Of a stretch of DNA of 64,000 bases, positions 38,201 to 41,200 are shown in pieces. The notes beneath the pieces are model-generated. The model ran no database searches and was not told where the DNA came from. It was given only the letters and a program-made list of their open reading frames with translations. Positions within the stretch are counted from its first letter, which is position 1; each line of letters starts with the position of its first letter. The stretch lies in assembly GCF_016859285.1 (NCBI RefSeq), contig NC_053422.1, positions 21,544,501 through 21,608,500 of the forward strand, in the 5' to 3' direction. Source of the stretch: Xiphias gladius. Lineage: Eukaryota > Chordata > Actinopteri > Istiophoriformes > Xiphiidae. The translations under genes were made by a program, and so were the position numbers.

Positions 38201-41200
38201 ACACTTAGACACGCAAACACAGAGAAGTCTTGGCACAATACTCTTCATTACCTGTGTGTCTACCAGCCTCAATGACCTATGTCATTATTATGGTTACACT
38301 GCAGTTACAACATCAAAGATCAGAGAGTAAAAAGTCGTCTTTCAACCGCAAACCTGTATTTGGGTCAGTGCAAATGAATGCAGAGGAATCTGTCCCTATA
38401 CGTGGACATTTTTGACAATGCTTTCTGTTTCATGTTCAATCGCAGACATGGAGAATGACAAGGAAATACAGCATGTAAGAGTATAAACCCGATTCACTGG
38501 CTTATATCATCTTTGCAGCACAACACATCAGCATTCACTGCACTGGCAGCTCCACTGCATTCCAACATCCTCCTCTATCTCTAGCCATGGCACAGCTGCA
38601 CCAAAGCACCTACAGCATCCCTGAGCAAACACATACACACACACGCCTTTAGCCAGCCTTACCATGTTTGTGGCATGTAACTGTTCAGAGAGTGTATGCA
38701 TGGAGAAGTCCGGTTCATACAATCATGATAATTAAATCCTTCTTGGAAATGGTCAAGGTGATGGTCCTCCGTAAGAGCTGAGCCTGAGATGTCGAGTAAC
38801 AAGGTGCTGTATTCCAGAAACAGGCTTCTCTTTCCGACGCACTGAGTGAGTCTCTCGGTCCGTCCTCCCTGTGTCTGCCAACCCTGTTATGTAATACACT
38901 TATACCCTGAGTCTGGGAGCCAATCAAAGATGCTCTGCCTAAAACACACACACATCCTCACACACACTGTTGTCTCGCGCGCCCACACCATCCGCACATT
39001 GACACTTCTGACTGCACAGCATTTAACAGAACTCTATTAGAAGGCACCTGCCCTGGAGGGAATACAAATGTGTGAACACCTGGGACGAGTGCTGGACTCA
39101 AAAAAGAGGAGCTACAGATAACACCCACCCAAGACTATCTGAGACACACACACACAACTTAACACATTCACATGCTTACATGTGAACACACATCTGTAAG
39201 TAGCACTGCGTTATCACTGCCAGCCAAGTGCAGCATAAATACTACGGTATATAAAATTATGATGACATGTTTACACTCCCATGGGGGTCCCCGCAAGGAG
39301 AGCTGTTTATGCCTCGTACCACAGCGATGAAAACACCAGCCCACATGCCATGGCATGTGATGGAGGTATATATGTTCATAAAACATGGCCGCCAAACACT
39401 TCTTTGTACACCTACAGTACAGCATTTACCACTTAACTAGACACACACAAAAAACACACAGCACTTAGCCTGAGTTGGAGAGAGCACATACAGTATCTTC
39501 AAAAAAACTCAGCCAGCCTGTCACCACTATTAATAGGACTGTCATGGACAGCTCTGGGATAGGCTTTTAGAATATCTATTTCTGACATTCATTCACCATT
39601 CATGACACCTGCCTCCAATCCTTTATTAGATTATGCCACTGCATGTGGAATAAAAGGAAATGGGCATTTTTATAGCCTTTCCACTTGGAGGAAATTTAAT
39701 CTCAAAGAAATATGCATATTTACTGATTAGTTTTTTATTAGTCGCTATTTAGTAACCAGGTGCAATAATGTGAGGGATTCAGAGACAGGTGCTACAGTGA
39801 AATGTTGCAAACGGGAGAAATGTGAACATTGTGGGCTATGAAATGGGAGCTGGGTTTAGCTGGATCTAAAATGGGGGAAACCTGGGCCCTCCTTTATTAG
39901 GCCTAGGCCTGCCTGCTATTGGTTACTGTTCAGATGAGATTAGCAAACAATGATCCTCCAGAGTCTATGATCAGCAGCACAAACCTCTCACTTGCACTGC
40001 TATTTGCTTCAAATATCACATTTACTTCAGTGGAGGGATCACTGCTCAGCTACTAGCTGCCATGTTGTAGATGTGGCTACAATGGAACACAATGGAAAAC
40101 AAGTCCTGACGCAGCAGTAGGTTATGGTTGAAAACAGACCATCAGATTTTTCATCTCAAAATCGAATTATTATAGAATAAAATTAATCCATGCTCATAAT
40201 CCACAAAATACAACATGGAGGAGATAGGGAGATCGACGTGGTGGTGGGGGGGGGGGCATATTTATATGCGGGGGATATGAATTTCCAGTCGCCACAGAAA
40301 AGGTAAGAGCATCACAGATCTGTATCCGCACAACTAGGACCACCACCAGACAACACTAGCTATCACAAACGGTGAGAGGACACAAGACATAACGAAGGAT
40401 TGGGGAGGGGGGGTAACAGAAATACATTATGTTGTACCAACGTCATTCATTTCAACGCGTAGCCGTGATGGAGCGCCGGGTGTCCCCGCTCTCGACCAAC
40501 GCGCACTGCCTTTCTCTCCTCTCCTGTGCGAAAGTGTGGTGCGCTGCGAACCGGGCCCCAAGCGCAGATCCATTAACGAGTACCGAGGATGAACATCAAC
40601 AGCACGTTCACAAGCACCAGAACCGCGATCACCGTAAACACCGCGCAAGTCTGGACGTCCAAGGCCATGGCGCAGCGCTGCGGGCCGATGCTGAGATGCG
40701 CTCTCTGTGACGGGCGGTATTCAGCTCCCCCGTCTAGACGCGTAGCCTCAAAGCGACCAAGAAATCCACCATTACAGTTAGGCAAGAAAGGAAAAAAAAA
40801 AAAAACGATGCCCCTACGCCTCTTCACACTACGCGATGTAATTCATAAAGGCACGGGAAGAGATGCATCATCCTCACCATCATCATCGTCATCAGTCTGC
40901 ACCGCGATTTCCCCCGCTAGTCAACACCTGCCGGTGTTTCGCCTCTTCCCCTAAACCGATGACTCTCGGGCCAATAGATTCCCGGGGCAAACGAGAAAAG
41001 TGGCTGTGCACAGGCTGTTCGCAGCTGCCGAGCTGCCTTCCGGTGAGTGGGGGACCGGGGAGATCGGCTGTGAGTCTGAGAGGCGGTCCTGTATTAATAC
41101 TGATCAGTGCTCCACCGCAAGACTACCGGCTTCAGCCATGACCTACAGTCGGGGGAGGGGCACAGCCAGCCCCTCGCTGACTACATCGACCACAGAGGCC

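Follow-up and report, generated by a model that had tools for sequence, protein, structure and literature searches.

Does the short hydrophobic frame in the leader of arhgef9, the collybistin gene, in Xiphias gladius encode a membrane peptide that has been kept by selection? The question arises from a window of DNA (the whole stretch analysed, 64,000 nucleotides) in which an initial annotation had reported a 31-codon micropeptide frame. The frame is present, and the strand, absent from that annotation, is minus: it is read from 40668 to 40573 (uORF1; Table 1), while the plus strand of the same interval reads LTSTEDEHQ..., unrelated to the peptide. Based on comparison with a paralogous gene in the same genome, we consider that the frame is probably a conserved transmembrane microprotein encoded by an upstream open reading frame (uORF).

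Hydrophobicity and codon usage of the frame

The leader that carries uORF1 sits inside a CpG-rich stretch at about 40.4–41.0 kb. Its start codon has G at −3 and G at +4. Further ATGs lie 5′ of it, at 40772, at 40846 and in a cluster at 40868–40892, and these count against the explanation that we favor.

The maximum Kyte–Doolittle mean of the peptide over 19 residues is 3.07, which ranks fifth among the 624 ATG open reading frames (ORFs) of 20–150 amino acids in the window; the four ranked higher are CA repeats read as (CV)n. This hydropathy was matched by 0 of 3,000 dinucleotide shuffles in each of three leader intervals and by no ATG ORF of 25–60 amino acids in two 2-Mb Markov simulations (0 of 6,727 and 0 of 6,842). 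From the single sequence, AlphaFold2 modeled one helix spanning residues 2–30 with a mean pLDDT of 93.5, and the summed biological scale for residues 8–28 is −3.9. Taken with the simulations, hydropathy and the single-sequence model point to a hydrophobic helix of about 20 residues, which supports, at the level of prediction, the transmembrane-like helix that the initial annotation had described. Its account of codon usage, in which hydrophobic residues are written with codons ending in G or C, also holds: GC content by codon position is 0.58, 0.29 and 0.77, T occupies 19 of 31 second positions and no codon has A in the third position.

Table 1 Features of the window discussed in the text (slashes mark splice junctions)
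Feature	Position	Strand	Details
arhgef9 exon 2 (SH3)	35328..35507	-	Acceptor cttcag/TTGATAAG; best PDB match Rho guanine nucleotide exchange factor 9
CpG-rich stretch, putative promoter and first exon	40400..40999	.	Three 200-nt bins, CpG o/e 1.08, 1.13 and 1.20
Inferred main start, short arhgef9 isoform	40438..40446	-	ATG ACG TTG, then donor GTACAACA
uORF2, exon 1 part	40438..40573	-	ATG overlaps uORF1 stop (TAATG)
uORF1, 31-aa hydrophobic micropeptide	40573..40668	-	ATG context tgcgccATGG, stop TAA
In-frame codons R-C-A before uORF1 ATG	40669..40677	-	R and C also match the arhgef4 peptide (MLRCN...)
536-aa open exon, putative alternative long arhgef9 N-terminus	56677..58284	-	Phase-0 donor AAG/GTATGT, frame-compatible with SH3 exon

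Inferred placement in the arhgef9 leader

The SH3 exon of the window gene scores 116 bits against GEF 9 in the PDB versus 100 bits against GEF 4, and RhoGEF and PH exons lie downstream of it on the minus strand. The sequence ATGACGTTG/GTACAACA begins 126 nt after the uORF1 stop, and from its junction an inferred intron of 4,930 nt leads to an in-frame join with the SH3 exon at 35507. Because the ATGACGTTG exon joins the SH3 exon in frame, uORF1 would be an upstream ORF of a short arhgef9 transcript. The mammalian collybistin N-terminus agrees with the joined product of MTL and the SH3 exon. A location in the arhgef9 leader, as had been proposed, is thus favored by the MTL exon as inferred and by the way it joins the SH3 exon in frame.

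At the inferred main ATG, positions −3 and +4 are T and A, and the donor that follows it, at 40430–40437 (minus strand), is weak (−3.1 on a position weight matrix). The top donor of the CpG-rich island, atgatgatg/GTGAGGAT at 40877 (minus strand, score 4.97), lies 5′ of uORF1, so an exon ending there would omit uORF1, and this too counts against our favored explanation. An alternative first exon may stop at that donor. Once exons 1 and 2 are joined as inferred, uORF2 extends over 55 codons, crossing the main start in a different frame and stopping 32 nt inside exon 2; its unspliced 48-amino-acid reading has no Pfam match. The 536-amino-acid open exon has no Pfam domain and putatively belongs to a separate long N-terminal arhgef9 isoform from an upstream promoter. 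For another collybistin first-exon peptide, which begins MQWIR..., the patterns 'MQW[IVL]', 'MQ[WC].R' and 'QWIR' were absent from the minus strand of the window.

Elsewhere in the window, an ankyrin-repeat coding exon (Pfam Ank) lies at 16739–17341 on the plus strand; judging from human gene order, we presume it to be asb12. Open frames at 5557–6480 (plus strand) resemble, by eye in translation, a decayed Tc1/mariner-type transposase.

A related peptide upstream of arhgef4

Queried with the SH3 exon, the 690-Mb genome gave 96 matches at E values up to 10, three of which have at least 67% identity: the window gene and two family members on contig C5. The gene at 7.26 Mb of C5 scores 120 bits against mammalian Rho GEF 4 versus 92 bits against Rho GEF 9. 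As the window gene prefers GEF 9 and this gene GEF 4, the two would have parted before fish and mammals did.

The leader of this arhgef4-like gene (L025:5909–6019, minus strand) encodes MLRCNLPPETQKVVVFLIMMLLIIINVVLMFLLAFQ, ending at TAG; begun at either of two more ATGs, located upstream in the same frame, the peptide would have 42 or 56 amino acids. The layout resembles that of arhgef9: from the stop to the inferred start, in the phase-compatible frame ATGGGTGTCCAACATGGCAGCAGCAGAACAAAG/GTACAACA, there are 137 nt versus 126 nt, both donors read GTACAACA and the inferred intron to the SH3 exon has 5,658 nt versus 4,930 nt. The arhgef4 start was chosen by us: two other ATGs come earlier, and an alternative donor 241 nt past the peptide stop scores 2.41 versus 0.35 for the chosen one. 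Both inferred first-exon donors, that of arhgef9 and that of arhgef4 (C5:7268731–7268738, minus strand), are without G at +5, which could mean that splicing of exon 1 is regulated.

The third family member, which we take to be spata13-like, has Rho GEF 4 as its best PDB match (94.6 bits, and 88.7 bits for GEF 9). No copy of the peptide was found there among 3,745 stop-to-stop frames in 160 kb, 150 kb of it upstream of the SH3 exon; the best summed score in that region was 43 versus 182–186 for the two peptides. This absence is another point against our favored explanation.

Possible signatures of selection on the peptide

When the arhgef9 and arhgef4 peptides are anchored at their stops, the last 27 residues align without gaps, with a score of 59 and 10 identities. 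We compared both with a set of 1,274 ATG ORFs of at least 27 amino acids from the window, twelve C5 loci and locus L003; among the other 1,272 ORFs, no score exceeds 17 with the arhgef9 peptide or 19 with the arhgef4 peptide. Shuffling the hydrophobic core gave a score of 59 in 2 of 100,000 trials at fixed offset and in 0 of 20,000 at the best of 13 offsets; 10 identities were reached by 0.35% of core shuffles, which counts against our favored explanation.

Identical bases between the two frames number 14, 18 and 9 of 27 at the first, second and third codon positions, compared with 11, 12 and 13 in the adjacent upstream 81-nt block and 9, 4 and 11 in the downstream block, both in the same register. 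The substitutions are thus of coding type. Overall nucleotide identity of the frame, at 41 of 81, is little above that of the upstream block (36 of 81), and this weighs on the other side. Since T is frequent at second codon positions in both stretches, shuffled codon orders reach the nucleotide identity in 0.6% of cases and the identity at second positions in 1.5%. The start codon is placed differently in the two peptides, a further point against the explanation that we favor; since the R-C codons before the arhgef9 ATG are part of the match, the start may have shifted.

When all six frames of the 690-Mb genome were searched for the arhgef4 peptide, with scores given to the best candidates, two places appear among the matches listed: the peptide itself (E = 2 × 10−14) and uORF1 (E = 0.47, 38% identity over residues 3–34), where the match begins at window position 40677. 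An E value of 0.47 is not significant alone; the match carries weight because the one further place listed for the 690 Mb is the predicted one. The reverse search of the genome with the arhgef9 peptide returned the peptide itself and no other place, which, like the high E value, counts against our favored explanation.

The leader RNA folds less stably than its shuffles (z = 2.19), 99 of 100 of which match or exceed its stability, so RNA structure offers no explanation for the constraint. From this paralogue pair inside one genome, which is the evidence for conservation, an ancient microprotein kept by selection seems likelier than an accidental frame, and the proposal that selection has acted on the peptide gains support from its predicted relative in the arhgef4 leader.

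Database searches and known systems

Pfam gave no match for the arhgef9 peptide or for the arhgef4 peptide in two lengths, and PDB sequences gave none for the arhgef9 peptide or for a two-row profile. Rfam had no match on the window at gathering score. Prokaryote and viral contigs, searched as possible carriers of stray fish DNA, gave 0 matches, and a phage collection likewise gave none.

Vertebrates have conserved uORF microproteins, such as the MIEF1 and SLC35A4 uORF products, which are longer and mostly mitochondrial. The likeness lies in a short ATG frame within the 5′ leader, a selected sequence and a main ORF downstream; unlike those products, the arhgef9 peptide consists almost entirely of a predicted transmembrane helix, and a paralogous leader holds a relative. 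Sarcolipin (31 amino acids) and the other SERCA regulins are alike in size and in having a single helix. Membership of that group was considered and rejected: the score was reached by core shuffles in 5.6% of cases for sarcolipin, 68% for DWORF and 97% for phospholamban (1,000 shuffles each), a similarity not clearly beyond hydrophobic composition, and Pfam returned 0 families. SMIM39, a human small integral membrane protein, maps at 2q21.1 near ARHGEF4. If this location is right, SMIM39 could be the mammalian arhgef4 relative, and a mammalian counterpart may already be catalogued under that name.

Discussion

We put at roughly 70% the reading that uORF1 is a genuine coding frame within exon 1 of the short arhgef9 mRNA and encodes a single-helix membrane microprotein; with similar confidence, judging from sequence, we expect the peptide to act in trans in a membrane. 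The peptide would predate the separation of arhgef9 and arhgef4 and would have been retained in both leaders. A scanning ribosome would start at the uORF1 ATG with its strong context. As translation would end before the helix had cleared the ribosome tunnel or its vicinity, insertion would have to be post-translational, most likely after release of the 31-residue chain, as for tail-anchored proteins, and D4 before the helix with R31 after it would favor a cytosolic C-terminus. Because uORF2 starts at the TAATG and overruns the weak main ATG, translation of uORF1 should lower collybistin output from this transcript, and reduced collybistin translation would then be a by-product of uORF1 and uORF2.

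One study bears on the fate of such a chain on both sides: hydrophobic C-terminal tails of noncanonical peptides favor degradation, which counts against our favored explanation, and the majority of the functional membrane-located noncanonical proteins considered there have a C-terminal transmembrane segment (PMC12863090). Noncanonical peptides predicted to be stable (PepScore above 0.6) have a median of 99 amino acids and a 5th percentile of 57 in another report, by which uORF1, at 31 amino acids, is short (PMC10908861).

The main rival to action in trans is a role of the nascent chain in cis, in which the hydrophobic chain slows or stalls termination and throttles translation of collybistin or Asef, and the released peptide has no job of its own. 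The gap-free alignment up to the stop codon, which fixes the distance from core to stop, would suit such a role, as would a 31-codon chain lying inside the tunnel at termination and a second uORF that begins at the TAATG and overlaps a weak main ATG. Stalling peptides are usually most constrained in their last residues, and here the last three differ (GTR versus AFQ), while the residues in common, including N and LMF, sit in the helix core; on balance we regard the cis role as unlikely. The helix might instead belong to another product, either a longer chain begun at an upstream non-ATG codon or a separate transcript of the island. The best donor of the island lies upstream of the frame with a score of 4.97 against −3.1 for the inferred arhgef9 donor, the R-C codons before the ATG also match arhgef4, and the arhgef4 frame has its extra upstream ATGs (42 or 56 amino acids). 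Set against these, the sole donor above zero inside the frame scores 0.32, the in-frame stop is equidistant from the core in both paralogues, and each has a phase-compatible start and a GTACAACA donor at a similar distance, which makes this origin highly improbable.

Least probable of all is that the hydrophobicity of uORF1 arose by chance, through a run of codons often with T in second position that reads as a helix by accident. De novo membrane peptides of that T-rich kind have been described (PMC7005711). The frame is short and was selected from 64 kb, it has no Pfam or PDB family, and the tblastn E value was only 0.47. Accident would nevertheless have to account for 0 of 3,000 shuffles per interval and 0 of 13,569 simulated ORFs attaining its hydropathy, and for a match at the corresponding place in arhgef4.

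Membrane microproteins encoded by uORFs are a known kind; a pair in the leaders of two paralogous GEF genes is new as far as our search went, and no report of such a frame in ARHGEF9 or collybistin was found in the open-licence PMC literature. More broadly, and as a doubtful proposition, the pair might belong to a family of very small membrane proteins, so far undescribed and present across vertebrates, whose frames lie in Asef/collybistin GEF leaders and whose members are made from the same mRNA as the GEF and work with it at membranes, in the case of collybistin at inhibitory synapses, which would make the loci bicistronic. The paralogue makes the claim checkable without wet work, by looking in any vertebrate for the same frame in the leaders of ARHGEF9 and ARHGEF4. 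In humans, ARHGEF9 is a disease gene for epilepsy and intellectual disability; were a selected membrane peptide encoded in its leader, variants there would become interpretable. If the claim is true, collybistin dosage would have an added control, and the biology of inhibitory synapses would gain a small membrane component.
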